Shown here piece by piece: positions 2,777-35,248 of a stretch of DNA of 64,000 nt (position 1 is its first letter; every line of letters begins with the position of its first letter). The position numbers were made by a program, and so were the translations under genes. Source of the DNA: Crocinitomicaceae bacterium (GTDB taxonomy: Bacteria > Bacteroidota > Bacteroidia > Flavobacteriales_D > Parvicellaceae); NCBI GenBank assembly GCA_002723085.1, contig PBNK01000002.1, positions 62,001 to 126,000 on the forward strand. The letters run 5' to 3'. The notes beneath the pieces were generated by a model. That model searched no databases. It worked only from the letters and a program-made list of their open reading frames with translations, and had not been told where the DNA came from.

Positions 2777-2798
2777 TTCGAAACGAAATCATTATTAT

Positions 2799-4619
2799 TT
2801 ATACTTTAACTCCCATAACTAAAATATCATCAATTTGGTCTAACGAACCTCTCCATGCTTCTATTTTTTGATCTAAAAGCTCTTTTTGTTTTTCCATTGG
2901 TTCGCTACTAATTTTAATTAAAGTTTCCTTAAACTGTCTATACATGAATTTTTTACCCTTTAGACCTCCAAATTGATCAGCATATCCATCTGAAAAAAGA
3001 TAAATAATATCCCCTTTTTTAACATCAAGAGTAAAAGTCTCATAGTTTTTGGTGCCAGGTTCAAAAGAGCCAATAGCAAATTTATCAGTTTTAAAAACTT
3101 GAAGTTCATTGTCCCTAATTAAATAAAGAGGGTTATATGCACCTGAATATTGTATTTTATTTGTTTTCCTATTTAAAGAACAAATAGATATATCCATGCC
3201 ATCTCTAACTGCATTTTCATCTCCCGTTTTATTAAGCGATTCACTTGCATATTTATTTAAGGCGTCAAGAATAGGTCCTGTTTTATCTATACTTTTATCG
3301 TTTAAAACTGCATTTAATCCGTTAGCTCCTACTAAACTCATAAAAGCACCTGGAACACCATGACCAGTACAATCAACTGAAGCAAAAAGCATTTCGTCTT
3401 TAATTTGATTAACCCAATAAAAATCTCCTGAAACAATATCCTTTGGCTTAAACAAAACAAAAGAAGAAGGAAATAGCTTTTTAATAAATCTATCTGGAGG
3501 TAAAATTGAATCTTGCAACCTTTTAGCATATCTGATACTGTCAGTAACATCATTGTATAATTCCTCTAATTTTGATTTTTGATTATCAATTTCATCTTTT
3601 TGTCTTACGACCTCCTCTGTTCTTTCTTTTACTTTTTGTTCAAGAATTCTTTCAGTCTCAGCTAGTTCGTCCTTCATCTTAAGCAATGCATGACCAAGAA
3701 CATCGTCCTCACTTAAAGGTTGATATGGGTATTTAAAATTACTTTGTCCTACCTCATGAGCAAATTGAGTGGTTTCTTTAAGCCCTTTTACTAAAGAGTT
3801 CATCGCAACTGACATTTCCCCAATTTCATCATTGCTTGGTTCTATTTCATGAGATGGGAAAACACCATTTCCTAAATTGAGTAGAATTCTTTTTAATCTT
3901 TGAACTGGTTTCGTTATACTGAGAGTGGTAAAGAAAGCGATAATAAATGTACCTATTAAGAGGATAATTCCCACAAAAAATATGGTTTGTGATAAACTTG
4001 AAAACTTTTTATTGGTATCTTTAAAAGATTCATTATTTTCTTGTTGTTTCTCTTTTGCAATATCAGATCTTATTCTAATTAAACCATCTAATTGAGTTGA
4101 AATATTCTGATATATTGGAAGAATCTCCTCATCCAAAAGTCCTTGGGCTAGTAATTGTTGATCTTCATAACTTTCAAAATCTGGCAATAGATCTCTTATT
4201 GAAAAATTATACATATCAATTAATTCTTTAATCTGTAAATTTATATTATCATATGTTGCTTTTCCAATTTGGATAGTATCCCAATTATCAGATAAATAGT
4301 CTAATGATTTTAAATCAGCATAAAGTGAAGAATCTAATAAAAGAGCGGCTTCTAGTTTAAAAACTTCTGTAGCCCTAGTCTGCTCATTTGTCCAATTTTG
4401 CATATGGTTATGCGTCTTGGATAAATTATCTTTAAGATGGTTTAACCCATCAAAAGAAGGTTGGTCAATTTGTAAAAACTTATCATTTTTTTTAATGCTG
4501 TCTTCTAGAGTTTGCTTACCATCAGAAACCACAGAAAATGTGACACTAAAAACTATTAAAAGCAGCAAAACAACTATACCAAAACCAAAACCTATTTTTT
4601 TCCCAACAGTAAATCTCAA
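2799..4619 (-). CDS. HAMP-domain membrane sensor with C-terminal PP2C/SpoIIE-type phosphatase
   Basis: 606 residues. Membrane helix 1 is at about 9-31, a largely helical extracytoplasmic domain at 32-208, helix 2 at about 212-235, HAMP at about 236-285 (NDEIGEMSVAMNSL), a coiled coil at about 315-358, and a PP2C SpoIIE domain from about 361 to the end. Metal-binding motifs are present: SGDFYW (D399) and VDCTGHGVPGA (D416), plus SDGYADQFGG near the C-terminus. In known systems such phosphatases act on phosphorylated anti-sigma-antagonist (STAS) proteins or other Ser/Thr-phosphoproteins; no such partner is encoded in the window. The gene starts 7 bases after the TPR gene and belongs to the YfiR-TPR-PP2C-cyclase operon. 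The extracytoplasmic domain is a candidate docking site for the YfiR-like protein two genes upstream (inference). Confidence 0.93.
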   Translation of the reverse strand: MRFTVGKKIGFGFGIVVLLLLIVFSVTFSVVSDGKQTLEDSIKKNDKFLQIDQPSFDGLNHLKDNLSKTHNHMQNWTNEQTRATEVFKLEAALLLDSSLYADLKSLDYLSDNWDTIQIGKATYDNINLQIKELIDMYNFSIRDLLPDFESYEDQQLLAQGLLDEEILPIYQNISTQLDGLIRIRSDIAKEKQQENNESFKDTNKKFSSLSQTIFFVGIILLIGTFIIAFFTTLSITKPVQRLKRILLNLGNGVFPSHEIEPSNDEIGEMSVAMNSLVKGLKETTQFAHEVGQSNFKYPYQPLSEDDVLGHALLKMKDELAETERILEQKVKERTEEVVRQKDEIDNQKSKLEELYNDVTDSIRYAKRLQDSILPPDRFIKKLFPSSFVLFKPKDIVSGDFYWVNQIKDEMLFASVDCTGHGVPGAFMSLVGANGLNAVLNDKSIDKTGPILDALNKYASESLNKTGDENAVRDGMDISICSLNRKTNKIQYSGAYNPLYLIRDNELQVFKTDKFAIGSFEPGTKNYETFTLDVKKGDIIYLFSDGYADQFGGLKGKKFMYRQFKETLIKISSEPMEKQKELLDQKIEAWRGSLDQIDDILVMGVKV

Positions 4620-4626
4620 TGTTAAA

Positions 4627-5547
4627 TTAATTTTTTTGTGATTCGGATTCTGAATTTAGCTTCTTTAAAATATTTGCATATTTAACATAGTTTTCCATTT
4701 CATTTAAACTATAATAAACTGCAATAATTCCTTGAATAATTGATTTATCATTTGGCTTAGAATTATAGGCTCTTTTTAAATAAGGCAACGACTTAGAAAA
4801 ATTTTCAAGGGCTTGTTCTTCCATCATAATCACCTTTTCTAATTCTGCATCATCAGCAAGTTCTTCTAAAATTAAATCAACTCCAAGATTGTGATAAAGT
4901 ATTCCAGTGTTATAGTTAGCACTGTAATTTGTTGAATCTATAGATAAAGTATTTTTATAACATAAAATTGCCTTATCTAAAAATTCTCTTCTTTCTTTTT
5001 TCTTGTTTAGGTATTTAATTCTGTACTGAGTTGCTAAAGCTAAATTAAACTCAATGTCTTTGTTTTTAAAATCTTTATTAGGATCAATAAATCTTTCTAA
5101 ATTTTTATATTCATTATAAAAACGTTGTGCATCATCATAATGAACCGTATCTAAATAAAAAACAGCATGATTATAATAGCTTCTAGCTAAAGAACTTAAA
5201 GCTGATTTATTATTGTCTACAAATTCTTTCTTTTTATCTAACTCTAAAGACTTTTTAAACGACTCTATAGCTATATCTCTTGCTTTAGATATTGGTGATT
5301 TATTATCTACTTGCTTAAACACAAAGTAATTTACAAATCCGCTTAAATGCCAATAATAAGGATTATCCTTTTGATTTGGACAAGCTGATAAAACACTATC
5401 TAACATAACCTTTGCTTTATCGAATTTTTTTTCCTGATAATATTTTAATAATAGCACTTTTTCAGGACAGTTTTCATACTGTCCATATACTCCTAAAGAA
5501 GGAATGAAGAAAATAATGAGAAACGCTATTTTAATTAATTTAATCAT
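4627..5547 (-). CDS. Secreted TPR-repeat protein of the YfiR-PP2C operon
   Basis: 306 residues with a signal peptide (LIKIAFLIIFFIPSLGVYGQ). The mature part is helical and rich in Tyr, Lys and Asp, with TPR-like spacing: a first repeat at about 27-60, then units near 95-125, 165-215 (NYSANYNTGILYHNLG) and 240-290. Its ATG overlaps the stop of the YfiR-like gene by 4 bases (ATGA), and its stop is 7 bases before the HAMP-PP2C start, so the three are almost surely cotranslated. TPR proteins are scaffolds, so an envelope adaptor between the YfiR-like protein and the sensor domain is a reasonable guess, but no specific function is visible. Confidence 0.85.
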   Translation of the reverse strand: MIKLIKIAFLIIFFIPSLGVYGQYENCPEKVLLLKYYQEKKFDKAKVMLDSVLSACPNQKDNPYYWHLSGFVNYFVFKQVDNKSPISKARDIAIESFKKSLELDKKKEFVDNNKSALSSLARSYYNHAVFYLDTVHYDDAQRFYNEYKNLERFIDPNKDFKNKDIEFNLALATQYRIKYLNKKKERREFLDKAILCYKNTLSIDSTNYSANYNTGILYHNLGVDLILEELADDAELEKVIMMEEQALENFSKSLPYLKRAYNSKPNDKSIIQGIIAVYYSLNEMENYVKYANILKKLNSESESQKN

Positions 5548-6068
5548 ATAATATTGTAAGCCAATTTAATTATATTCTGACCTACTTTTAAATCATGTTT
5601 TTCAGCTTTTGTTTTGTTTAATTCAAACTTGAGTTTGCTGTCTTTAAATATAAAGTTAATGATTGCACCTGATGAAGCCAAATTTGTACTTTCAGAAACC
5701 ACCAATGTTTGATAATCAACATTTTTATTTATTTGATTTATAGCATCATTTTTTGATGAAGTAACAAATAAAATATGACAATTTTTTAATTCTTCTATAC
5801 TAGAACAATATTTAATCTTAATAGTTTGATTTCCAATTAGCTTATTTGTATACGAAACATTAAATTGTTTATATACATCTTCATCACCATATACCCCAAT
5901 AATAAAATTGCCTTTTGAATATTCTTCAGGCCATAAAATTTTTTTGGCAAATTGGTACATATAAATTCCTTTAAGCTTTGTTTTAGCAGCTGCAGCATCT
6001 CCGATTTGTGAAATTCCGGGTACATATGCTAATACTAAAAATAATGCTATTAAAAATTTAATTTTCAA
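5544..6068 (-). CDS. YfiR/DUF4154-family periplasmic protein
   Basis: 174 residues. The start is a TTG at 6066-6068 directly before a good signal peptide (KIKFLIALFLVLAYVPGISQ); there is no in-frame ATG near it. The mature part matches the DUF4154/YfiR pattern: KGIYMYQFAKKILWPEE near the N-terminus, FIIGVYGDEDVYKQF, a middle segment CHILFVTSSK and an end segment with INFIFKDSKLKFELN. In Pseudomonas, YfiR is a periplasmic repressor that binds the sensor domain of the diguanylate cyclase YfiN (TpbB). Here no GGDEF protein is nearby. Instead the operon encodes a TPR protein, a HAMP-PP2C sensor and a nucleotide cyclase, which suggests that the YfiR module controls a different output. First gene of the operon. 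Confidence 0.87.
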   Translation of the reverse strand: MKIKFLIALFLVLAYVPGISQIGDAAAAKTKLKGIYMYQFAKKILWPEEYSKGNFIIGVYGDEDVYKQFNVSYTNKLIGNQTIKIKYCSSIEELKNCHILFVTSSKNDAINQINKNVDYQTLVVSESTNLASSGAIINFIFKDSKLKFELNKTKAEKHDLKVGQNIIKLAYNII

Positions 6069-6132
6069 TTCTACTTAAAATTAGATGAATAGTTACGAAA
6101 ATAGGAAACTAATTACAATAACCATGCCTGTT

Positions 6133-6555
6133 TTAACCATATTTAATTTTATACTTATAATGTTGCTCTCTGCTTTTTTGAGCTGCTTTCTTTACTTTTT
6201 CTTTATCATACTTATCTCTAATTGCTCTTTTTCTTTGCTGATAACTAAATGAATCTTTGTCTACACCTGAAGGCCTGTAACTAGATTTATTGCTATATCG
6301 AAAAGGATCATCGCTAATTCCAATTGTTCCCTTTGGGATTTTCATAAAATCAAATGGATTTTTCTTTTTAATAACATAGTTATTGGTTTTATTCCCATTA
6401 AAAAAAAGTCCTTTATTATTATTTTTCTTTATTTTAACAGGTCTTTTTTTTGACACAAAAGGGTCTCTATATTGAGCATTGATATTAGAAGAGTTTAAAC
6501 CAATCAATAACAAAACAATCAAAACATTTATAATGTATTTGTGCTTGAAACCCAT
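6133..6555 (-). CDS. Small basic secreted protein, function unknown
   Basis: 140 residues, not recognised. A hydrophobic N-terminal segment (about 9-26, ending NINAQ) looks like a cleaved signal peptide. The rest is strongly basic and low in complexity: Lys/Asn-rich stretches at 38-66, then DPFRYSNKSSYRP, and a Lys/Arg-rich C-terminal third (QQRKRAIRDKYDKEKVKKAAQK) that is likely helical. It has no Cys and no catalytic motif. It lies 64 bases upstream of the YfiR operon and 11 bases downstream of ferritin on the same strand, so it may be transcribed with ferritin. The ATG at 6553-6555 is the natural start. Confidence 0.65.
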   Translation of the reverse strand: MGFKHKYIINVLIVLLLIGLNSSNINAQYRDPFVSKKRPVKIKKNNNKGLFFNGNKTNNYVIKKKNPFDFMKIPKGTIGISDDPFRYSNKSSYRPSGVDKDSFSYQQRKRAIRDKYDKEKVKKAAQKSREQHYKYKIKYG

Positions 6556-6566
6556 ATTCTTTTTAC

Positions 6567-7067
6567 TTATTCCGGATTAGAAGAAGCTACTTTTAAATCT
6601 CTGTCAAATAAATAAAGCCCCCCTTTATCTTCACCAATCATGTTTAATTTATCAATAGTTGTTCTTGCTAAAGCTTCTTCTTCTAGTTGTTCTGCAACAT
6701 ACCATTGCATAAAATTATGAGTGGTGAAATCTTTTTCTTCTAAGCAAAGACCAACAATATTATTAATGCTTTCAGTTACATTAATCTCATGTTCTAATAA
6801 ACATTCAAAAACATGAGTTATCGATTTAAAAGTTGTCGGAGGTTTAATTAGGGCAGGTATAACAGCAGTACCTCCTCTTTCGTTAATAAATTTAACCAAT
6901 TTAAGCATGTGCATACGCTCTTCATCACTATGTTGGTATAAAAAGGAAGATGTTCCGTTTAAACCTTGTGATTCTGTCCATGAAGCCATTGACAAATAAA
7001 ACTGTGAAGAGGAAGCTTCTAACTCTATTTGCTTGTTTAAAGCTTTTTCAATAATTGATTTTAACAT
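6567..7067 (-). CDS. ftnA: Ferritin (iron storage)
   Basis: 166 residues from the ATG at 7065-7067 (MLKSIIEKALN). A TTG 15 bases further up would add KKKV-type residues, but it overlaps a promoter element and is not typical of the family. The protein is a four-helix ferritin: helix A holds the iron ligand Glu in NKQIELEASSSQFYLSMASW, helix B carries SDEERMHMLK (the E..H ferroxidase ligands), and helix D carries WYVAEQLEEEALA. It would oxidise Fe(II) and store Fe(III) in a 24-subunit cytoplasmic shell. It has no membrane or targeting segment. The length is normal for bacterial FtnA. Confidence 0.95.
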   Translation of the reverse strand: MLKSIIEKALNKQIELEASSSQFYLSMASWTESQGLNGTSSFLYQHSDEERMHMLKLVKFINERGGTAVIPALIKPPTTFKSITHVFECLLEHEINVTESINNIVGLCLEEKDFTTHNFMQWYVAEQLEEEALARTTIDKLNMIGEDKGGLYLFDRDLKVASSNPE

Positions 7068-7140: not shown

Positions 7141-8973
7141 TTGAGTAAATATATACTTGAAATAAAAAAATTCAAGATTCAAATTAAAGGTCAAAAATCT
7201 TCTATTGTAAAAAACCTTTCTCTAAATGTTGGTCACGGTGAGATAGTGGGATTAGTGGGAGAGTCGGGAGCTGGTAAATCAATTTCTGTTTTAAGCGTCC
7301 TAAACCTTTTAAATAAAAGCAATAAATTCATTAAAGAGGGTGAAATTAATTTTTACAAAAACTCCAATTACATAAACTTAATTCACGCTGAAAAACAAAT
7401 ACTTCAGAAAATAAGAAGTGAAAATATTGGTATGATTTTTCAAGAGCCAATGACAGCACTCAATCCTATTGTGACTTGTGGGGAACAGGTTCTAGAATCT
7501 ATAATTAATCAAAAAATTAATAGCCAAGCAAAAACAAACTCATTCTTATTAGTGAGTGTTGTTAATCAATTAATAAGAACTATTAAAATTATTTCATTTT
7601 CTCTTTTTAAAATCCCCTACATAAAAACTTCTCTATACAAAGACGCTAAAAAAGAAACCATTTTTTGGTTCGATAAATTAAAAATTAAAAACTCTAAAAA
7701 AATATTTAAAAGCTATCCACACGAAATTTCTGGGGGACAAAAACAACGAGTATTAATTGCAATGGCCTTATCTAAAAACCCTGATTTATTGTTAGCTGAT
7801 GAGCCCACCACAGCGCTAGATTCATTTACACAAAATGCCATAATTCAAGATTTGAAATTTCTTCAAAAAGAACAAAACTTGAGTATTCTTTTTGTTTCAC
7901 ATGATTTAGAATTGATGGCAAAATTTACTGATCGAATATATGTAATGCAAAATGGAAGCATTGTTGAAAAAGGGGATACAAATCTTGTTTTTAAAAACCC
8001 TAATCATCCATATACTAGGGAGTTAATTGCAAGTAAGCCTCCTATTAATTATAAATTAAAAGAGTTACCTACACGTAAACATTTTATGGGCTTTGATGAA
8101 GAAGGTTTTTTAGGTGATATTAACCTTTCTATTGATGAACTAAATAAAAAGTTAATTTATCCAGCTGATGAATCGATAAAAAAAGCAAATGATTTAGGAA
8201 ACAAAAAACCTGTTCTTAAAGTTCAAAACGTATCTAAAGAATATAAATTAAAAGGGACTAAAAAAAATTTTAAAGCATTAAACAATGTTAGTTTTAACCT
8301 ATTCCTAAATGAAACTTTAGGAATCATTGGGGAGTCTGGGTGTGGAAAAACAACTATTGGTAAATTAATTTTAAAATTAATCCCTATAAGTAGTGGAAGC
8401 ATCATCTATAATGGAAATGATATTTTTAAACTTAAAAGAAAGGCTTTAAATTCCATTAGAAAAGATATTCAAATTGTTTTTCAAGACCCCTACAGTTCCT
8501 TAAATCCCAAACAAAAAATTTTTGCTGCACTAATGGAACCTTTAAAAGTTCATGGTAAATTGAGCCGTTGGGAACAACGAGAAAAAATATTAACCCTAAT
8601 TGACGAAGTTGGATTAAGGCCTAATGTTCTTGAAAAATTTCCTCATGAATTATCAGGAGGTCAAAGACAACGAATTTGTATCGCCAGAGCTTTAGTCGTT
8701 AATCCAAAAATTATCGTCTTTGATGAATCTGTTTCAGCTCTTGATGTTTCAATTCAGGCAGATGTGTTAAATCTTCTCAATAAAATCAAAAAGCAAAAAA
8801 AACTAACTTATATTTTTATTTCTCATGACTTATCAGTTATAAGGTTTATGTGCGATAGGATTATGATTATGAAGTCTGGAGAAATTATTGAAATTGGCCC
8901 CTCTGAAGAAATATTCAATAGGCCAAAATCAACTTATACAAATGAATTGTTTTCTTTAGTATTAGATTCATAA
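7141..8973 (+). CDS. ABC transporter with two fused ATPase domains (Opp/Dpp/Yej peptide-importer type)
   Basis: 610 residues starting at a TTG; no ATG lies between it and the first Walker A, so TTG is accepted. NBD1 has Walker A GESGAGKS (40-47), Q-loop QEPMTALNP, signature ISGGQKQR near 196-203 and Walker B LLLADEP. NBD2 has GESGCGKT, QDPYSSLNP, LSGGQRQR and IVFDES. This order matches DppD-DppF/YejF-type fused ATPases that drive peptide uptake. Each NBD is followed by the oligopeptide-type C-terminal tail (NHPYTRELIAS in the first). NBD1 has a segment of roughly 25-45 extra residues (about 125-170, Ile/Ser/Phe-rich) between the Q-loop region and the signature. No permease or binding-protein gene is nearby, so the partner subunits must be elsewhere. 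Confidence 0.93.
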   Translation: MSKYILEIKKFKIQIKGQKSSIVKNLSLNVGHGEIVGLVGESGAGKSISVLSVLNLLNKSNKFIKEGEINFYKNSNYINLIHAEKQILQKIRSENIGMIFQEPMTALNPIVTCGEQVLESIINQKINSQAKTNSFLLVSVVNQLIRTIKIISFSLFKIPYIKTSLYKDAKKETIFWFDKLKIKNSKKIFKSYPHEISGGQKQRVLIAMALSKNPDLLLADEPTTALDSFTQNAIIQDLKFLQKEQNLSILFVSHDLELMAKFTDRIYVMQNGSIVEKGDTNLVFKNPNHPYTRELIASKPPINYKLKELPTRKHFMGFDEEGFLGDINLSIDELNKKLIYPADESIKKANDLGNKKPVLKVQNVSKEYKLKGTKKNFKALNNVSFNLFLNETLGIIGESGCGKTTIGKLILKLIPISSGSIIYNGNDIFKLKRKALNSIRKDIQIVFQDPYSSLNPKQKIFAALMEPLKVHGKLSRWEQREKILTLIDEVGLRPNVLEKFPHELSGGQRQRICIARALVVNPKIIVFDESVSALDVSIQADVLNLLNKIKKQKKLTYIFISHDLSVIRFMCDRIMIMKSGEIIEIGPSEEIFNRPKSTYTNELFSLVLDS

Positions 8974-8994
8974 AAAATTAATTATTTTAGAGAA

Positions 8995-11847
8995 ATGTTG
9001 ATTACATATTTTAATAATCGTAAATGTTTACTTTTTAATAAAACGTCACTTTTATTTGTTTTGACTTTTTGTTTGTCAACAATTTATAGTCAAGTAAACA
9101 TTAAGGGAAGCATTATTGACAATTCTTCTAGTGAGGAATTAATCGGGGCAACAGTAAAAATTGTCGGAACTCAATATGGATGTGTCACAGATTTTAATGG
9201 CGACTTTAATATTAAAACAAATACTAATATTCCTTTTGTAATTGAAGTCTCATATGTTGGTTATAAAACTATTGAATTAACCGTTAAAGATACTAAACCA
9301 ATCAAAATCAGGTTAAAAAGCGATGAAATGCAGCTTGAGGCTGTTGAAGTAATTAGTGGAATAAGTGAAAAATTAAAAGAATCGCCATTGAGCATTGAGT
9401 CCATGAGTATAAACGGCATTAAAGAAACTTCTGCTACAAATTTTTATGAAGGATTAAGCCATATGAAAGGCGTTGATCTTACATCTGCTAGCTTAGGGTT
9501 TAAGGTGATTAATACTAGGGGGTTTAATAGTACATCGCCTGTTAGATCGTTGCAAATAATTGATGGGGTAGACAATGCTTCCCCTGGTTTAAATTTTGCT
9601 CTAGGTAATTTTTTGGGAGCTTCGGAACTAGACTTAATGAAAGTAGAGATTGTTTCGGGTGCTAGTTCTGCTTTTTTTGGACCCAATGCCTTCAATGGTG
9701 TAATCAGCATGCACACTAAAAGCCCTTTTCTTTTTCCAGGTTTTTCTGCAAGTGCAAAATTAGGGGAAAGAAATTTAAATGAATATGCTGTTAGATATGC
9801 AAAAGTGTTTAAAAATGATGCTGGGGAAGATAAATTCGCTTACAAGCTTAACCTTTATTACATGAGTGCTGACGATTGGGTTGCAAATAATAGTAATTCT
9901 GTTGCTGGCTTAGATACTGACGAGTCAAATTTAGGTGGATATGATGCTGTAAACAGGTATGGTGATGAAAATTTAAGTCCATATATTAACAATGCAATTT
10001 ATGGCCTTAATGGAGAACCTGACGTAGCTTTAATTTCTCAATACCCTGGTCTTGGAAGATACCATAGAACTGGATATTGGGAACAAGACTTGGTAGATTA
10101 CGACACGGAAAACTTTAAAGCTGCCTTGGGGTTACATTATATGATTAATAAAGACGTTGAACTCATTGCCTCATCTAATTTTGGAACCGGAACTACTGTT
10201 TACCAAGGAGACAATAGGTTTAGCCTGAAGGATATCCTATTTTTTCAAAATAAGATAGAAATAAAAAAAGAAAACAACTTCTTCTTCAGAGCTTACGCTA
10301 CTCATGAAGATGCTGGAAATAGTTATGATGCTGTTTTAACAGCATTTCAAATGCAAAATGCTGCAACTTCAGACGTTGATTTTGACCAACTTTACGAACA
10401 ATATTGGTCTAATAATATCACTGATAAAGTTCAGGCATTAGACCCAAATGTACAGTGGGAACCTTGGTTTGACAATGCTACTCAAACCCCATACCCGGCT
10501 GATACGGCAGCTATAAATATTGTTTTAAACAACAATCAAGATTCTTTAATTTCATGGCACAACCAAGCTGAAAATTTTGCAAATAGTGCTTACACTCCTC
10601 ATGGATCTGTAGATTTTTTCGAACCAGGAACTGCTCGATTTGATTCCATGATGAACATTATTACTTCAACTGCATCTGTATTGGATGGGGGTTCTAAAAT
10701 TGTTGACAAATCGGCCTTATATCATATTCATGGTGAAAAAATATGGGATACTGATTTTGCAAAATTAACTTTAGGAGTTAACTCTAGAATTTACACTCCA
10801 AGATCTGAAGGATCACTTTTTAGTGACACAGGTAATGTCACCATAATCAATAAAGAAATAGGAGGCTACTTAGGCTTTGAAAAAAAGGTTTTAAATGACC
10901 AACTTATTATAAAATCATCTTTGCGTTTGGATAAAAACCAAAATTTTAATCTTCTTCCATCGCCTGCGGCATCCTTAATTTATAATCTTAATGAAAATCA
11001 CAACATCAGAGGAACTTTCACTTCTGCCATCAGAAATCCCACACTTCTTAATCAATACATGTATTACAATGTGGGTAGAGCAAAATTAGTAGGTAATATT
11101 AGCGGGTACGATTCTTTAGTTACAATTGAATCATTAAGGTCTTATTATTTTAGCAGTTATAATCCTGATTCTTTAGTATACTTTAATGTGGATCCTATTC
11201 GTCCAGAAAAAGTTAAATCAATTGAACTTGGATACAGAGGAACATTTGGAGGTAAATTTTATGTAGATGCTGGTTATTATTACAATTGGTATAGAGATTT
11301 TATAGGGTTTCTAAACGGCTTAGATATTTTCATCACTGATCTCACAGGAGAAGCCTTTATTAGAAATGCCTATAGAATTGCCACAAACTCTGAGGAAAGA
11401 ATCACCACTCAGGGCTTCTCAGTTGGTTTCAATTATTATTTTAACGAAAATTATATGATAAATGGGAATTATTCTTGGAACAAATTAAACAAATTAGCAG
11501 ATGATCCAATTATTCCATCATACAATACCCCCGAACACAAATTTAATATTGGCATAACAGGTAGAGAAATAACTATTGATGCTCTTAATCTAAATCAAAT
11601 TGGGTTTAACTTAAATTTTAAATGGATTGAAGGCTTTATTTTTGAAGGCTCACCTCAATTTACAGGGAATGTTCCTACCTATGGTCTTTTAGATTTTCAA
11701 ATAACAAAAGCATTTTCTAAGCAAAACTTATCAGCAAAATTTGGGGCCTCTAATGTGCTCAACAATAAAGTTTTGCAAGTTTATGGCGGGCCTTATGTAG
11801 GAAGAATGATCTACATGTCTCTTCTGTTTGATTGGAAAGATAAATAG
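8995..11847 (+). CDS. TonB-dependent outer-membrane receptor with N-terminal carboxypeptidase-like domain
   Basis: 950 residues. An N-terminal extension leads into a signal peptide ending near residue 32 (FCLSTIYSQ). Then come a CarboxypepD_reg-like beta-sandwich (34-110; GATVKIVGTQYG, DFNGDFNI, SYVGYKTIEL), a TonB plug (about 125-245; VNTRGFN-like INTRGFNSTSP, LQIIDGVDNA, EIVSGASSAFFGPNAFNG) and a long 22-strand-type barrel ending in an aromatic residue-rich strand (MIYMSLLFDWKDK). It would import an unknown ligand using TonB energy. There is no SusD partner next to it, so it is not a classical SusC pair. It starts 21 bases after the ABC gene and is followed 69 bases later by the hydrolase-fold gene; the three may share transcription. 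Confidence 0.95.
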   Translation: MLITYFNNRKCLLFNKTSLLFVLTFCLSTIYSQVNIKGSIIDNSSSEELIGATVKIVGTQYGCVTDFNGDFNIKTNTNIPFVIEVSYVGYKTIELTVKDTKPIKIRLKSDEMQLEAVEVISGISEKLKESPLSIESMSINGIKETSATNFYEGLSHMKGVDLTSASLGFKVINTRGFNSTSPVRSLQIIDGVDNASPGLNFALGNFLGASELDLMKVEIVSGASSAFFGPNAFNGVISMHTKSPFLFPGFSASAKLGERNLNEYAVRYAKVFKNDAGEDKFAYKLNLYYMSADDWVANNSNSVAGLDTDESNLGGYDAVNRYGDENLSPYINNAIYGLNGEPDVALISQYPGLGRYHRTGYWEQDLVDYDTENFKAALGLHYMINKDVELIASSNFGTGTTVYQGDNRFSLKDILFFQNKIEIKKENNFFFRAYATHEDAGNSYDAVLTAFQMQNAATSDVDFDQLYEQYWSNNITDKVQALDPNVQWEPWFDNATQTPYPADTAAINIVLNNNQDSLISWHNQAENFANSAYTPHGSVDFFEPGTARFDSMMNIITSTASVLDGGSKIVDKSALYHIHGEKIWDTDFAKLTLGVNSRIYTPRSEGSLFSDTGNVTIINKEIGGYLGFEKKVLNDQLIIKSSLRLDKNQNFNLLPSPAASLIYNLNENHNIRGTFTSAIRNPTLLNQYMYYNVGRAKLVGNISGYDSLVTIESLRSYYFSSYNPDSLVYFNVDPIRPEKVKSIELGYRGTFGGKFYVDAGYYYNWYRDFIGFLNGLDIFITDLTGEAFIRNAYRIATNSEERITTQGFSVGFNYYFNENYMINGNYSWNKLNKLADDPIIPSYNTPEHKFNIGITGREITIDALNLNQIGFNLNFKWIEGFIFEGSPQFTGNVPTYGLLDFQITKAFSKQNLSAKFGASNVLNNKVLQVYGGPYVGRMIYMSLLFDWKDK

Positions 11848-11916
11848 CTTCAATTATTAATTGTTTGAATATTTGTGTAAATTAGAGATTCAATTTATTC
11901 AACTAAATCTACATTT

Positions 11917-13488
11917 ATGAAAAAAATTATTACAAGTTTTATTTTAGGAATTGCCATTATAACAAGTGGTTTTTCTCAAACAAGATACGTTGACGAAGTC
12001 TTCGGATCTGTTGATGTAACAACAGATGTTGTCTACGGTCAAAATTTTTCTGTTCTAGCTGGAACACCTATTCCAACTGGTATGGCTGGGACGCCTATTC
12101 CTGCACTTGCATTTGACTTTTACGAACCTACTGGAGATACTGAAACTGAACGCCCTTTAATTATTCATTTACATACGGGAACTTTTGCCCCTATTGTTCA
12201 TAATGGTAACCCAACTGGGTTACGTCAAGATTTTGCAACAAATGCCTTTTGTGAAGGATATGCTAAAAGAGGTTATGTTGTGGCTAATCTTGAGTACAGA
12301 TTAGGGTGGAACCCAAATTTACCTACAGAGCCTGAAAGAGCTGCTGAACTAATGAAAGCAGTATACAGAGCAATTCAGGATACAAAAGCTGCAGTTAGAT
12401 TTTTCAGAAAAGATTATGAAACTAATGGCAATACTTTTGGAATTGACACTTCAAGAATTATTCTATCAGGACAAGGTTCTGGAGGTTGGGTTGCCTTAGG
12501 ATATGCTACAGTTGATAAACTGTCTGAAATACAATTGCCTAAATTTCTTGATGGAAGTGGTGTACCATTAATTGACACTGCAGTACTTGGAGACTGGAAT
12601 GGTGTTGGAGGTAGCCCCACATTAAACATGCCAAATAGCCCAGGCTATTCAAATGATATTCATATGGTTTGTAGTATGGGTGGTGGAATAGGTGACCTAA
12701 GTTGGTTAGAAGCGGGAGATGTTCCTATTGCAGCTGTACACGGGCCATTAGATGCAGTAGCTATTTACACAACTGGAAATGTTTCTGCCGGAGGTGTTAA
12801 TGTAACTACTGATATTAGTGGTGCTCATGATGTAGTTAAAAAAGCAAATATGTTAGGAAATAACGATGCCATTTTAGATCATTATGACCCATATACTGTA
12901 GCTGCAAAAACAGCTTCTAATGCCCTTGTTGCAGCAAATGCAACAGACTGGGGAGGTACAGCAATTACTGAATCTGTTAATAATGTATTTCCATTTATTA
13001 CTGGAAACCCAGGCGAAGGATCTCCTTGGGATTTTTGGGACTCTACTTTTCTAGTATCTTCAGTAGCTCCTGCAGTTGGACTAACTGCTACAGAAGGACA
13101 AGCGGCTCATGCAAGTGGATTACAAACTAATCCGGATATGAGTCTTGGAAAATCGATGGCTTACATAGACTCTACTCTTAGTTATTTCTGCCCAAGAATT
13201 GTTAATGCAACAATGCTTCCAGGAAATACTGCTGAAATAACTGAATTTAACAAAGTTAACAAAGTAGCCGTTTACCCTAATCCATCAAATGGAAATTTAG
13301 TTTTTACATCAAAATCTGGAACTATTGAATCCATTAAATTTCACAATGCTTTAGGTCAATTGACTAAGTCATACTCTCCTAATACAGCATTATTTAATGT
13401 TGATAATGTGAATTTACCTGATGGTATTTATTTAGTTGAAATAATTTGTGAGGGAAATATAAGTGTTCAAAAAATTATTCTGGAATAA
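11917..13488 (+). CDS. Secreted alpha/beta-hydrolase-fold protein with T9SS sorting domain, nucleophile apparently lost
   Basis: 523 residues: signal peptide (1-20, ending GFSQ), carboxylesterase-like fold, then a T9SS type A C-terminal domain (about 445-523; VAVYPNPSNGNLVF ... GIYLVEI ... VQKIILE). The fold resembles the 405-residue esterase at 34031-35248: both have LEYRL/ANYRL, KAAVRFFRKD/KSAIRYLRKD and a strand before the nucleophile turn. The usual GxSxG turn here reads GQGSGG (185-190), so the nucleophile position is Gly with Ser one residue later. The oxyanion HGG is replaced by HTG (LIIHLHTGTF). The catalytic His is hard to place (a QAAHAS segment late in the domain). It could be a pseudoenzyme or binding protein, or use the shifted Ser. 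It is exported by Sec, then T9SS. Confidence 0.88.
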   Translation: MKKIITSFILGIAIITSGFSQTRYVDEVFGSVDVTTDVVYGQNFSVLAGTPIPTGMAGTPIPALAFDFYEPTGDTETERPLIIHLHTGTFAPIVHNGNPTGLRQDFATNAFCEGYAKRGYVVANLEYRLGWNPNLPTEPERAAELMKAVYRAIQDTKAAVRFFRKDYETNGNTFGIDTSRIILSGQGSGGWVALGYATVDKLSEIQLPKFLDGSGVPLIDTAVLGDWNGVGGSPTLNMPNSPGYSNDIHMVCSMGGGIGDLSWLEAGDVPIAAVHGPLDAVAIYTTGNVSAGGVNVTTDISGAHDVVKKANMLGNNDAILDHYDPYTVAAKTASNALVAANATDWGGTAITESVNNVFPFITGNPGEGSPWDFWDSTFLVSSVAPAVGLTATEGQAAHASGLQTNPDMSLGKSMAYIDSTLSYFCPRIVNATMLPGNTAEITEFNKVNKVAVYPNPSNGNLVFTSKSGTIESIKFHNALGQLTKSYSPNTALFNVDNVNLPDGIYLVEIICEGNISVQKIILE

Positions 13489-13512
13489 TTTTAAAACCCT
13501 TTATAAAAAAAT

Positions 13513-13538
13513 AAAAGGCCTCAATAGAGGCCTTTTTT
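13513..13538 (+). terminator. Rho-independent terminator after the T9SS hydrolase gene
   Basis: A perfect 10-base stem (AAAAGGCCTC, loop AATA, GAGGCCTTTT) is followed by a T run. It sits 25 bases after the stop of the 523-residue protein and separates it from rseP. Confidence 0.9.
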
Positions 13539-13583
13539 ATTTATCATTAACTTTTCTTAACCTCTTTATTTAAGATATTAATC

Positions 13584-13591
13584 TATATTTG
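13584..13591 (+). promoter_or_regulatory. Putative -7 promoter element for rseP
   Basis: TATATTTG matches the Bacteroidetes consensus TAnnTTTG, 17 bases before the rseP ATG and downstream of a strong terminator, as expected for an independent promoter. Confidence 0.5.
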
Positions 13592-13608
13592 CGCCTTAGA
13601 AAAAAAAC

Positions 13609-14937
13609 ATGGAATTTTTAACACAAGCTGCACAATTTATACTTAGTCTTTCAATTTTAATTGTTTTACATGAGCTTGGCCATATGCTTCCAGCAAGGTG
13701 GTTTAAAACAAGAGTGGAAAAATTTTATCTCTTTTTTGATGCCGGGTTTTCACTTTTTAAATTCAAAAAAGGGGATACTGAATATGGAATTGGATGGATT
13801 CCTTTGGGTGGATATGTTAAAATATCAGGAATGATAGATGAAAGTATGGATAAAGAACAAATGAAAGAACCTGCTAAACCTTGGGAATTTCGTTCTAAAC
13901 CTGCTTGGCAAAGGCTTATTATAATGATTGGGGGGGTAACCGTAAATCTTGTTTTAGGTTACTTGATTTATATAATGATGCTTTTTGTTTGGGGAGCCGA
14001 TTATTTACCAAATGAAAATGTAAAATATGGAGCCCATCTAAGCCACGAAGTTTTTGAAGATTATGGGTTTAAAGAAGGTGATTTAATTACTGCTGTTGAC
14101 GGAAAAGAAGTAGTAGAATTTGGAGAAGCCTCAAAGCAAATTTTAATTGATGGGGCTAAAGAAGTTACAGTGCTTAGAGATGGAAGAGAACAATTTATTG
14201 CTATACCCGATAAGATTGTTGAAGATATACTTCGTTTAAATGTAAAAGGTATTTTTTCTGAATGGAGAACTCCGAATATTGTTGACAGTACTTTAAAAAA
14301 TGATTATGCAGAAATTGCTGGATTAAAAAAGGGGGATAGCATTGTTGGAATTAATGGCATCGAAACTCCTTTTTATGTTGATTTTAAAAATGAAATTAAA
14401 AATCATAAATCAACAACTGTAAACATTAAGTTTTTTAGAAAATCTAAATTAGATTCTTTAAATATACAAGTAAATGAAGAGGGACTAATTGGATACATTG
14501 CTAAAAACCCGAGTGAAATTTTAAAATTTGAACATAAAGAATATGGGTTTTTAGAATCGATCCCAGCAGGAATTGTTGAAGGAACAAATACATTAACTAA
14601 TTATGTTAAATCTATTAGTTTATTGTTTAGTAAAGAAGGAGCTAAACAAATTGGAGGTTTTGGAACAATCGGAAGTCTATATGGCAAAGTATGGGACTGG
14701 CAAAGGTTTTGGGGGATGACTGCTTTATTGTCTATTATTCTGGCCTTTATGAATATACTGCCTATACCCGCTTTAGATGGTGGACATGTTATGTTTTTGA
14801 TTTACGAAATTATTTCAGGCAAACCACCTAGCGATAAATTTTTAACTAAGGCGCAAGTAGTAGGAATGGTCATTTTACTTTCTTTATTGGTTTATGCCAA
14901 TGGTATGGATATAGTAAGGTGGCTTAGCGGAAGTTAA
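13609..14937 (+). CDS. rseP: RIP metalloprotease RseP (site-2 protease)
   Basis: 442 residues. The zinc motif HELGH is at 21-25 inside the first membrane helix, preceded by LSLSILIVL. Two PDZ-like regions lie in the middle (about 150-215 and 225-290; EIAGLKKGDSIVGING). The conserved NILPIPALDGGHVMF near residue 385 gives the third zinc ligand (Asp). The protein cleaves transmembrane helices within the inner membrane, typically anti-sigma factors or signal-peptide remnants. Length and topology are normal for the family. It has its own likely promoter and a terminator upstream. What it cleaves here cannot be told, as no anti-sigma factor gene is in the window. Confidence 0.96.
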   Translation: MEFLTQAAQFILSLSILIVLHELGHMLPARWFKTRVEKFYLFFDAGFSLFKFKKGDTEYGIGWIPLGGYVKISGMIDESMDKEQMKEPAKPWEFRSKPAWQRLIIMIGGVTVNLVLGYLIYIMMLFVWGADYLPNENVKYGAHLSHEVFEDYGFKEGDLITAVDGKEVVEFGEASKQILIDGAKEVTVLRDGREQFIAIPDKIVEDILRLNVKGIFSEWRTPNIVDSTLKNDYAEIAGLKKGDSIVGINGIETPFYVDFKNEIKNHKSTTVNIKFFRKSKLDSLNIQVNEEGLIGYIAKNPSEILKFEHKEYGFLESIPAGIVEGTNTLTNYVKSISLLFSKEGAKQIGGFGTIGSLYGKVWDWQRFWGMTALLSIILAFMNILPIPALDGGHVMFLIYEIISGKPPSDKFLTKAQVVGMVILLSLLVYANGMDIVRWLSGS

Positions 14938-15953: not shown

Positions 15954-18467
15954 TTATATTCCTGAAATAATAAACTTCTTTGTAATCATCTGTTGATCTA
16001 ATTTAATGTTTAGGTAATATACCCCATTACTCATGCCATTTGTTTCAATTAAAACGCTCTCGGCCTGAGTATAAAATGTTTCTTTTTGGAGTATTTGTCC
16101 TAATTGATTTATAATGTGCCATTCACCAGCAGAACCCTTTGGAACTCTTATAATAAAATTACCCTGATTTGGATTTGGGAATAAATTGATTTCATTTAAT
16201 CCCGCAACACCTATACAGTTATCTAAATAAATTTTGACTTCTTTCCTTTGGCTTTCGCATAAATCATCACAAACCTTCCAATTAAAAAAATAATAATATT
16301 GAAAAACTGAAGATATTGTTTGTGAAACCATAGAACTGTTAATGCTTATTACATCATCAATTACATAAGGAAAATTAATATTAGAGCTTGCTCGGTATAA
16401 GTTAATGTCAGATCCAGGAGAAAGGCCAATTTTATAATTATTTCCTGGATATAAATGTGCGTTTAAATTAAGTGTAATTATTCCGTCAGTATCAAATGAA
16501 AATGTTTTAGAAAATAATATATTTTCATTGCTGTCTAAAATAATTATATCTCTATTTGCTGTTCCAACTGCTTTTACATCAACTGATTTAAGAATTACCT
16601 TCTCATACACATCAAATCTTAAAAAGGAATATGAATTACTATTTAACCCTGTGCTTGGAAAACTTCTTGGACCTAGTTGCATACAAGAAGTATCGTTATA
16701 ATAAGTTACATATAAAGATGTATCAGAATCAATTGGTCCTATAGCTAAGTCTCCGCCAACATGAGAACTTTCTAATGAGTTTTCTTCAGCATACCACTGC
16801 AAATTAGCTGCATTATTATTTAGTTCTAAAACTGTAGAATCTCCATCACACAAATAAAAATCATCAACATTAGGTGGGGGCATTAACTCAATGTTAAATG
16901 CGCTATTAATTGTTTTAGAGTCTGATCCAAAAGGGTTAGATACCGTCAAAGTTGTATTGTAGATTCCTAATTGATTTAAAACAGTTTGGCCTTGTTGAAT
17001 TGTATCGTCAATTATTCCGTCACCATTAAAGTCCCATTCCCAATGAGTTGGAAAATTTAAAGACCTATCGGCATAATAAACTCTTCCATTACAATTAGAA
17101 GAAGAAAGAATCTCAAAATCAGCAACAGGTGGAGATAAACAGGTCAATGCATTATATGCATTTATTCTTCCAGCGCCTAATAAACCAGCATAGTTTGAAT
17201 TGACGGCATCTATGTTATCCGCTGAGTTTTTCATACAATTGATAAGTTGTTCATTTGTTGCATTTGGAGCATATGACTTCATTAATCCTAAAAGTCCAGC
17301 TACCATAGGTGCTGACATAGATGTTCCTGTTTTTGTGTCGTATCCTGAATATGGGATAGTGCTAAGAATAGAACTTCCTGGTGCTGAAATGTCTATCCTA
17401 TTGCCGTAATTTGAAGAAGATGCTTTTACATCGGCACTATTAGTGTTGGCTACACATATAACTCCTTCATAACAAGCTGGGTATTTTGGACTGGTTGTTA
17501 AATTAGCATTGTTATTTCCAGAAGCTGCAACAATAATAGATCCGTTATTTAACCCAAACTGAATTATATTATAGTTAGTTTGAGAAAATGATCCGCTTGA
17601 CCAAGAACAACTTATGACATCGGCACCAGAAACTATAGAATAATATACTCCATCCCAGGTTTGATTAACTAACCCGTTATCATCCGCTGTTTTTACTGCC
17701 ATTAAAGAAATCCCATAACCAATAGCAGAAATACCTACACCATTATTTGTTGTTGCACCAGCTATCCCAGCACAATGTGTTCCATGTGCCCAAGCACTAG
17801 TATTGTCATGTGGGCTTGGATCATTGTCATTTGAATAAGTATCCCATCCGTTTATATCGTCTATATAGCCATTATTATCATCGTCAATTCCATTATTAGG
17901 TATTTCATTTGGATTCATCCAAATGACGTCTTGTAAATCAGGGTGATTAATAGTAATGGCATCATCAACAATAGAAACAACAATATCGCTATTTCCAGTG
18001 CTTATATCCCATGCTAAATCAGCTTGAATTTTATCTAAATGCCAACAACTGCTATAATTTGGGTCATTAGGAGTGAAATCTTCTTCATCAATATAAACAG
18101 GTTCTGCATATTCAATTTCAGGCAATTCATTTAATCTTTTAATTATTAATTCTAATTCTTGATCTGTTGCTTTAGTTTTGAATAAAAACGTAGTATATAA
18201 GTCAATTGCTTCTTTTTTTTTGCCAAATGGTTGTTCAATTTGTGTTACAACAATTGAGTCAAAAAAACTTGAAAATGGAAAATAACTTAATGGGATATCG
18301 CTAGCATTTTTCTCAATATAATTCCAATTATACTCAGAAATAATTTCATAATTACTGAGTTTTAAATAAAGTTCTCCCTGAAAGAATTTACCATTTGATT
18401 GAGTGTAGAAAATTACACTTAAAAAATTAAAACCAAGAAAAATAAATAGTCTTAAAATAAAACTCAT
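15954..18467 (-). CDS. Secreted S8 subtilisin-family protease with PKD domain and T9SS tail
   Basis: 837 residues. A signal peptide (about 1-23) and a propeptide region (to about 140) precede the S8 domain, where the triad is visible: D168 in VSIVDDAI, H228 in AHGTHCAG and S383 in GTSMSAPMVAG; the oxyanion Asn lies in AASGNN. The doubled Asp at 168-169 recalls kexin-type proteases. A Ca-binding-like DDDNNGYIDD loop lies just before the His. A PKD domain follows (about 450-525; WEWDFNGDGIIDD), then an Ig-like region and the T9SS type A tail (NLFPNPNQGNFII ... GVYYLNI ... KKFIISGI). It is a cell-surface or secreted endopeptidase exported by T9SS. The gene is monocistronic and convergent with its neighbour on the left. 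Confidence 0.95.
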   Translation of the reverse strand: MSFILRLFIFLGFNFLSVIFYTQSNGKFFQGELYLKLSNYEIISEYNWNYIEKNASDIPLSYFPFSSFFDSIVVTQIEQPFGKKKEAIDLYTTFLFKTKATDQELELIIKRLNELPEIEYAEPVYIDEEDFTPNDPNYSSCWHLDKIQADLAWDISTGNSDIVVSIVDDAITINHPDLQDVIWMNPNEIPNNGIDDDNNGYIDDINGWDTYSNDNDPSPHDNTSAWAHGTHCAGIAGATTNNGVGISAIGYGISLMAVKTADDNGLVNQTWDGVYYSIVSGADVISCSWSSGSFSQTNYNIIQFGLNNGSIIVAASGNNNANLTTSPKYPACYEGVICVANTNSADVKASSSNYGNRIDISAPGSSILSTIPYSGYDTKTGTSMSAPMVAGLLGLMKSYAPNATNEQLINCMKNSADNIDAVNSNYAGLLGAGRINAYNALTCLSPPVADFEILSSSNCNGRVYYADRSLNFPTHWEWDFNGDGIIDDTIQQGQTVLNQLGIYNTTLTVSNPFGSDSKTINSAFNIELMPPPNVDDFYLCDGDSTVLELNNNAANLQWYAEENSLESSHVGGDLAIGPIDSDTSLYVTYYNDTSCMQLGPRSFPSTGLNSNSYSFLRFDVYEKVILKSVDVKAVGTANRDIIILDSNENILFSKTFSFDTDGIITLNLNAHLYPGNNYKIGLSPGSDINLYRASSNINFPYVIDDVISINSSMVSQTISSVFQYYYFFNWKVCDDLCESQRKEVKIYLDNCIGVAGLNEINLFPNPNQGNFIIRVPKGSAGEWHIINQLGQILQKETFYTQAESVLIETNGMSNGVYYLNIKLDQQMITKKFIISGI

Positions 18468-34030: not shown

Positions 34031-35248
34031 TTACTTCATTACAGTAAGTTTTTTAAGTGTTGAATTGTTGTTAAATAATATTTTTACGTAGTAAACACCT
34101 TTGTTGTAAGAAGATAAAGAAAGATTATAATTTTTATCATTTACAAAAAAAGTCTGAACAATTTGACCCATTTGATTGTATATAATTATTCTGTTTATTA
34201 CTTCATTCGAAGAATAATTAACTTCATTTATTGCTGGATTAGGAAATTGCTTTACCTCTTGTTTTTTATTGACTGTAATTCCAAGGTTTGGATTATTACA
34301 AGGCAATAATGGATATATGAAGTTTGATGCAAATTCAACAGCTTGAGTAAATAATGGATTAGCATGGCCAGAGCCAGCCCACCCGTGACCCTCACCAGTG
34401 TATACCAAAGTATCATTCAAAACTCCAGCACTATCAACAAAAGGTTTCATTGCATTCATCCCACATAAATTTAATACTGTTGGCTGATTTGTGCCAGGGC
34501 CACAATTATAATTTACTGTTAAGTCAGCGGTTCCATGAATAAAAACTACAGGTTCATCATTAGCATCAATCCAAGCTAAATCGTTGATACCTCCTGCAAA
34601 ACTAATTATACCGCTTATTTCAGAAGAATATCCATCATTTCCCGCATCTCCCTCAAGAGTCCCCCCAATACTAGAAACGAGGCCTTGGACATTTGTTGGT
34701 GAAGTTGGGAGGTCGCTAATTTGATCTATATATGCTAGGTGAATAGATAATACAGCTCCCGCAGAATATCCACCAATAAAAATTCCTTGGGGATGAATCC
34801 CTAATGCATTTCCATTCGCATGATCTTTTCTTAGGTATCTAATAGCTGATTTAATGTCCGCTACAGCTTTTAAAACTGTTCTATACTGTTCTTCTGAACT
34901 TAGTGCGAAGATTATAGGGTTTGATGATAACCTATAATTGGCTGAAATAGCAACATATCCCCTTTTAGCATATGATGTACAAAAATCAACACAATCAGTT
35001 AAATTTTTATCTCCTGCATAAAATGACCCACCATGCATATATAAAACAACCGGTCTATTAGTAGCTGTATCGCCATCAGGTGTATAAATATCCATTTCAT
35101 GGTATTGGTCAGTATAAACATCTGAGTAATTGACTGTTGAAACAGAAACAGTACTAAAAATTTCTGTTTGATATCTTCCATCACATTGGCCAAAACTTGC
35201 GCTAGTAGCAATGAGTATTAAAATAAGTAGTGTACTGATTTTTTTCAT
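34031..35248 (-). CDS. Secreted carboxylesterase-type alpha/beta hydrolase with T9SS sorting domain
   Basis: 405 residues: signal peptide (1-20, SASFG), esterase domain and a T9SS type A tail (about 330-405; VKQFPNPAINEVNYS ... GVYYVKI ... LKKLTVMK). Catalytic parts are intact: oxyanion motif MHGGSF (HGG at 72-74), nucleophile S162 in GGYSAGA, an Asp in IHGTADLTV and His in GEGHGWAG. It resembles bacterial hormone-sensitive-lipase or feruloyl/acetyl-esterase-like enzymes; the substrate is unknown, but secreted esterases often deacetylate or de-esterify plant or algal polymers. It is paralogous to the 523-residue protein at 11917-13488, which lacks these residues. Likely cotranscribed with the small gene downstream. 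Confidence 0.92.
   Translation of the reverse strand: MKKISTLLILILIATSASFGQCDGRYQTEIFSTVSVSTVNYSDVYTDQYHEMDIYTPDGDTATNRPVVLYMHGGSFYAGDKNLTDCVDFCTSYAKRGYVAISANYRLSSNPIIFALSSEEQYRTVLKAVADIKSAIRYLRKDHANGNALGIHPQGIFIGGYSAGAVLSIHLAYIDQISDLPTSPTNVQGLVSSIGGTLEGDAGNDGYSSEISGIISFAGGINDLAWIDANDEPVVFIHGTADLTVNYNCGPGTNQPTVLNLCGMNAMKPFVDSAGVLNDTLVYTGEGHGWAGSGHANPLFTQAVEFASNFIYPLLPCNNPNLGITVNKKQEVKQFPNPAINEVNYSSNEVINRIIIYNQMGQIVQTFFVNDKNYNLSLSSYNKGVYYVKILFNNNSTLKKLTVMK

Follow-up and report, generated by a model that had tools for sequence, protein, structure and literature searches.

What does a secreted esterase homolog do when it appears to have lost the residues that would make it an esterase? A gene at positions 11917–13488 raises this question in the window, the stretch of 64,000 nucleotides that we analyzed from a Crocinitomicaceae bacterium (contig PBNK01000002.1, assembly GCA_002723085.1). 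The initial annotation described its product as a T9SS-exported esterase relative seemingly deprived of its catalytic residues, encoded behind a TonB receptor and possibly involved in ligand capture. The features of the locus, and of a second gene of the window with which it was compared, are these:

8995–11847, plus strand: TonB-dependent receptor of 950 aa (Pfam: CarboxypepD_reg, plug and barrel), the conserved partner
11848–11916, plus strand: intergenic gap of 69 bp, free of terminator-like sites in a consensus scan only
11917–13488, plus strand: pseudo-esterase P0002, 523 aa, an open frame without a stop, with BD-FAE and Por_Secre_tail domains; the family comprises 81 de-duplicated domains
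11917–11979, plus strand: signal peptide, residues 1–21, lacking a lipobox Cys (by eye from the translation)
11980–13227, plus strand: α/β-hydrolase-fold domain, residues 22–437
12172–12180, plus strand: HTG, residues 86–88, where the oxyanion HGG is expected; position 87 is T in 78/81 of the family and G in 55/60 of the esterase-type relatives
12469–12486, plus strand: GQGSGG, residues 185–190, the nucleophile elbow, with Gly187 for Ser
12751–12753, plus strand: Asp279, the catalytic-acid position, kept
13021–13029, plus strand: S369-P370-W371, the equivalent of the paralog's His loop; P370 in 79/80 and W371 in 80/81
13270–13479, plus strand: T9SS type A C-terminal sorting domain, residues 452–521
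13513–13536, plus strand: terminator-like hairpin behind the pair, weak
34031–35248, minus strand: paralog outside the pair, with an apparently complete triad (Pfam, BLASTP)

The pseudo-esterase matches the BD-FAE family (PF20434) at 44.5 bits (cut-off 26.8). This is its closest family, as BD-FAE matches all 23 members of our family profile A1, and the COesterase profile matches 10 of the 23. The T9SS tail noted earlier is borne out by two models of the sorting domain, Por_Secre_tail (PF18962; 33.7 bits, cut-off 27) and TIGR04183 (44.2 bits, cut-off 23), and the same genome encodes a T9SS, with a match to the SprA translocon at 2376 bits. Both features of a T9SS type A cargo, a sorting domain and a T9SS in the genome, are present, and the protein would reach the cell surface by this route. 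The GQGSGG reading is exact at the stated position, HTG does replace HGG, and the gene does follow a TonB receptor, which is encoded on the same strand with its end 69 bp away.

In contrast, the paralog at 34031–35248 has all three catalytic motifs (GGYSAG, HGTAD, and GEGHGW) and no adjacent receptor of this family. The GGYSAG and HGG attributed to it are both present, the latter in the stretch MHGGSF. Its Pfam scores are 74.4 bits for BD-FAE (cut-off 26.8) and 37.5 bits for Por_Secre_tail (cut-off 27), and BLASTP aligns it with the pseudo-esterase at 32% identity over 292 aa. Judged by its motifs, the paralog is likely an active exported esterase.

Across 142 de-duplicated domains, the nucleophile column (residue 187) holds Gly in 82 and Ser in 60. 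When the divergent sequence L171 is set aside, the division is complete, with Gly in 81/81 family domains and Ser in 60/60 esterase-type relatives; Gly likewise occupied this column in all 42 first-round members. The survey of homologs proposed with the initial annotation therefore finds the same loss throughout the family. An ungapped alignment places Gly187 on the nucleophile position, and alignment of the A1 profile with the solved esterase 5ao9 lays GQGSGG on GGSAGG, with Gly opposite the Ser. The neighboring residue 188 is Ser in 42 and Thr in 39 of the family domains, versus Ala in all 60 esterase-type relatives, and is thus not a conserved serine nucleophile. C-terminal to residue 280, the column richest in His has it in only 31 of 79 domains. 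The GEGHGW of the paralog aligns with GEGSPW in the pseudo-esterase, where column 369 is Ser in 40, Ala in 29, and Gly in 11; this assignment of His loss is a sequence alignment within a loop. Asp279 is retained in 80/80 family domains, as in 60/60 esterase-type domains. Compared with a BD-FAE esterase, then, the fold, the profile match, and the Asp are present, and the Ser of GxSxG and the late-domain catalytic His are absent. The proposed loss of the catalytic residues holds for the Ser and the His and fails for the Asp.

Structural models agree with this placement at low confidence. AF2 run on 14 aligned sequences gave a mean pLDDT of 40.9 (51.0 for the core alone), the alignments being shallow because they were built from proteins of the window and related loci only, and we used only the strand and helix boundaries and the fold matches of these models. 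Both low-confidence models have a strand at residues 176–186 and a helix at 188–202, with G187 as the sole turn residue, which sets Ser188 one position past the elbow. A search with Foldseek returned esterase-type α/β hydrolases as the top matches of a low-confidence model (E 9.8e-8); with VIA-align, esterases led for the full model (Z 12.4, 184 residues, rmsd 3.5), and the core model gave Z 12.5 over 168 residues (rmsd 3.7), again from low-confidence models. The models thus set Ser188 off the elbow, and the sequence alignments show no conserved His and a retained acid. Given a Gly at 187 and no conserved His, a Ser-His-Asp triad is very unlikely in the pseudo-esterase, and we are confident from these alignments that it has most probably lost catalysis.

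The loss does not reflect a decaying gene. The Gly members lie on one side of a single branch in our tree (49 of 106 rows, support 100/94), in a tree from which the two motifs were excised (28 of 75 rows, 100/94), and in a tree with the active-site columns blanked and class-wide rows added (47 of 94 rows, 100/98). The dN/dS of the domain is 0.040 against its nearest relative (NG86, Nei-Gojobori; dS near 1) and 0.048 and 0.066 in two closer pairs of relatives (NG86). The family is under purifying selection, and the pseudo-esterases are a maintained family with a stable trait. Several residues that vary in esterase-type relatives are nearly invariant here, namely W131 (81/81), R141 (78/81), N316 (80/80), W371, and R427 (80/80); P92 (81/81) and N96 (79/80) belong to a segment that esterase-type relatives do not have.

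The family is widespread in the class. In a class survey, 127 of 295 genomes across many families contained a match at E ≤ 1e-70; in 11 or more of them the match resembles, both in score and in where it ends, a sister type with Ser or Asn at the elbow. Full-length domains whose elbow was read in 40 loci of this survey have Gly187 in 33 of 34 cases. The exception, a Tyr, belongs to the second tandem copy in L275, whose elbow reads GEYTGG and whose Asp site reads HVPGN; on these motifs it is a case of apparent further drift once catalysis had gone. Two larger counts are unfit as family counts: an order survey (224 of 399 genomes, E ≤ 1e-50) does not separate the two types of hydrolase, and 59 of 60 relatives includes many matches to C-terminal domains. 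Viral contigs, when searched, held no relatives of the pseudo-esterase. Of ten full-length members tested, eight matched Por_Secre_tail and two did not, and some members have PKD or carbohydrate-binding-like modules. Three loci of family f9 (L116, L148, L149) each encode one protein of ~1300 aa in which two pseudo-esterase domains lie in tandem. An X25/AMPK-CBM-like module occurs twice in L149 and once in L117, neither of which has a Por_Secre_tail match.

The gene neighborhood is conserved chiefly in one element, the receptor. Of the 58 pseudo-esterase rows whose upstream DNA extends for 1500 bp or more, 52 have a receptor of the same family (A4) as the immediately preceding gene in the same orientation; locus L160 contributes two rows, its ORF being split. 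The remaining neighbors vary between lineages. Family copies with no receptor beside them occur in L114, L115, L128, and L157. In L128 the usual place of the receptor is taken (2200–6900, plus strand) by a lysyl-oxidase-like T9SS protein of 1567 aa that bears MopE copper-binding motifs. An ~800-aa gene at position −2 in several loci was considered as a part of the system and dropped as a bystander; it encodes a fused 2-oxoacid dehydrogenase E1. The receptor of the window reaches 104.5 bits against TIGR04056 (cut-off 368) and is not a full SusC. The hairpin behind the pair, one structure seen on both strands, is the only one in 8700–13800; it is weak evidence for a transcript end, as terminator-like sites there (2 found) did not exceed shuffled sequence (mean 3.0), and promoter and terminator counts in general were no higher than in shuffles.

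The two genes also occur together at the level of whole genomes. In a phylum sample of 395 genomes, the pseudo-esterase and the receptor are present in the same 7 and both absent from 388 (Fisher p 3.5e-15, ignoring relatedness), with positives being full-length pseudo-esterases and receptors above 1400 bits; the next receptor scores 686 bits. Among 60 relatives the receptor is found in 32, the pseudo-esterase in 31, and both in 30. Contig ends interrupt two of the three discordant genomes (G016, G033), and the third (G041) has L171, the divergent partner. Adjacency is looser in a class-wide sample: only 19 of 31 loci have the receptor as the immediate upstream gene. The 12 genomes left over carry it elsewhere, adjacent on the downstream side in two (G811, G919), ~4 kb upstream in G848, and unlinked in nine. 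The receptor is interrupted in G841. At locus L158 of G012 a broken receptor gene accompanies a broken copy of the pseudo-esterase, as a functional pair would predict; that genome has other partial copies. No receptor of this family stands beside the esterase-type genes of 13 fetched loci or beside the window paralog. We consider it likely that the pseudo-esterase is functionally paired with the receptor.

We therefore favor, with some reservation, a model in which the protein is a surface pseudoenzyme that serves as the capture partner of a TonB importer. A BD-FAE-type esterase would have been recruited to this role, its nucleophile Ser exchanged for Gly, its His lost, and new constraint placed on the remainder of the domain. 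The pseudo-esterase and the receptor would form an operon-like pair, and the T9SS would carry the former to the cell surface. There it may hold a ligand, uncut, at or close to the pocket of the old active site and pass it to the adjacent receptor, or may itself act as the lid of the receptor, which would then take the ligand in with TonB energy. Retention of the same receptor with an esterase-like protein across the class makes nutrient capture, rather than digestion, probable, and the conserved pairing with one receptor family strengthens the ligand-capture idea of the initial annotation. Location at the surface, a physical complex with the receptor, the use of the pocket, and the class of ligand are presumed parts of this model.

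Three other accounts have to be weighed against capture. The protein might still hydrolyze esters, the residue-188 hydroxyl serving as a displaced nucleophile together with a base that we did not recognize; the invariable hydroxyl at 188, where esterase-type relatives have Ala, and the retained Asp279 are what such an enzyme would show, but the hydroxyl belongs to Thr in half of the family, the elbow residue is 187 in both (low-confidence) models, no His column past residue 280 is conserved, and the oxyanion HGG has become HTG, so that we regard this account as very improbable. A plug or regulator, for instance one that keeps the barrel closed and is pushed aside by a signal or ligand, would need no turnover and would have the same receptor pairing; within the domain, strong conservation near the old catalytic motifs suggests instead a pocket in use, no independent support for a stopper emerged, and we find this role quite improbable.

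It is also conceivable, though unlikely, that the pseudo-esterase is a structural or adhesive surface protein, or part of some other surface complex, and that its co-transcription with the receptor is regulatory only. Neuroligins are α/β-hydrolase surface proteins in which the elbow Ser is likewise replaced by Gly; a neuroligin structure, 2wqz, is matched weakly by profile A1 (E 2.4e-5), above the large carboxylesterases listed and below the bacterial esterases, and the PKD or carbohydrate-binding-like modules of some members would suit such a role. This is a resemblance only, the closest family being BD-FAE, and neuroligins differ in being eukaryotic, in their larger COesterase-type domain and adhesion ligands, and in having no TonB receptor. 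Moreover, pairing with one receptor family and genome-wide co-occurrence exceed what co-regulation predicts.

A capture partner of this kind would combine features of known systems. With BD-FAE and carboxylesterase-like hydrolases (PF20434; 5ao9, 6nkf) the pseudo-esterase shares the fold, the strand-elbow-helix order, and the Asp, and active-looking BD-FAE paralogs carry a T9SS tail as well; it differs from them in the Gly at the nucleophile position, HTG, the missing catalytic His, and invariant residues of its own. With SusCD, BtuB-BtuG, and HmuR-HmuY it shares the pairing of a TonB-dependent receptor gene with one for a dedicated exported partner, and the partner is both encoded and co-occurring with the receptor, as the row, phylum (7/7 positive genomes), and class-locus counts given above attest. 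Unlike the surface lipoprotein partners of SusCD and BtuBG, the pseudo-esterase has no lipobox and has a T9SS tail instead, and relative to all three systems it is an α/β-hydrolase pseudoenzyme beside a receptor that is not a full SusC. BtuG is described as a ligand-binding lid on its TonB receptor (PMC10404256). We found no published description of the pseudo-esterase/receptor pair in the open-licence PMC literature. If the capture model is true, the T9SS supplies dedicated partners to TonB importers, a role so far linked mainly to surface lipoproteins, and many proteins with esterase profiles would be binding proteins.

Relatives outside the main clade bear on the order in which the residues were lost. 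In the blanked-column tree, L171 and eight rows from families f103, f108, and f121 (L240–L247) are sister to the main Gly clade (99/97), although the long branch of L171 leaves its exact placement unsure. L171 itself, from G041, shows the Ser-to-Gly exchange as well. The eight rows have Ser187 in six and Asn in two, FLP after the oxyanion motif, and no GxGH in the His loop, which reads FEP- or FEF-like. None has an adjacent receptor, and a lower-scoring receptor of the family is present elsewhere in all eight genomes. Ser187 in a clade without GxGH suggests, as far as alignment can tell, that the His was lost before the Ser and that the Ser was lost more than once. Living relatives in which the Ser is kept and the His apparently gone make the passage from enzyme to binding protein directly testable.

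Distant relatives of the receptor (~570–690 bits) point to another hydrolase fold in the partner position. Among 37 loci fetched in two batches, the second mostly of the same-class families f17 and f19, a GDSL-type lipoprotein is encoded at +1, within 90 bp, in 16, for example:

L183:2988–4469, minus strand: GDSL-type lipoprotein behind a distant receptor, with 15 further loci

The block-I Ser is present in 15 of the 16 and DxxH in all 16; Pfam supports the GDSL identity of some, with one of three in one scan giving no match. Like the pseudo-esterase, this GDSL/SGNH-type partner has a hydrolase fold and is encoded immediately after a receptor from the same superfamily; it differs in its unrelated fold, in being a lipoprotein, and in mostly keeping the catalytic Ser and DxxH. 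Two of 17 aligned GDSL-type lipoproteins (L207:8425–9885, plus strand; L168:7153–8466, minus strand) have GDG at the Ser site, and the unrelated GDSL fold thus also seems, from these motifs, to be losing its nucleophile to Gly. In L168 an esterase-type relative adjoins a FadL-family channel. A search of the genome of the window for a homolog of the GDSL-type lipoprotein, run without a positive control, found none. Identification of the GDSL-type lipoprotein and the FadL neighbor as BamH and BamG was rejected on comparison with PMC12611786 and PMC12578637.

The GDSL partner and the FadL neighbor suggest a ligand with acyl or ester groups, and together with the fold of the pseudo-esterase they lead us to infer that the ligand is probably an acylated or ester-bearing molecule. 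As a tentative extension, to which we give somewhat less than even credence, the pair may belong to a class-wide Bacteroidota outer-membrane uptake system whose T9SS-exported capture subunit is an esterase that decayed stepwise and repeatedly, with a GDSL-type lipase in its slot elsewhere in the receptor superfamily. Elsewhere in the window (15954–18467, minus strand), an 837-aa protein with a T9SS-like tail contains HGTHCAG and GTSMSAP, which we take to be subtilisin-like motifs.
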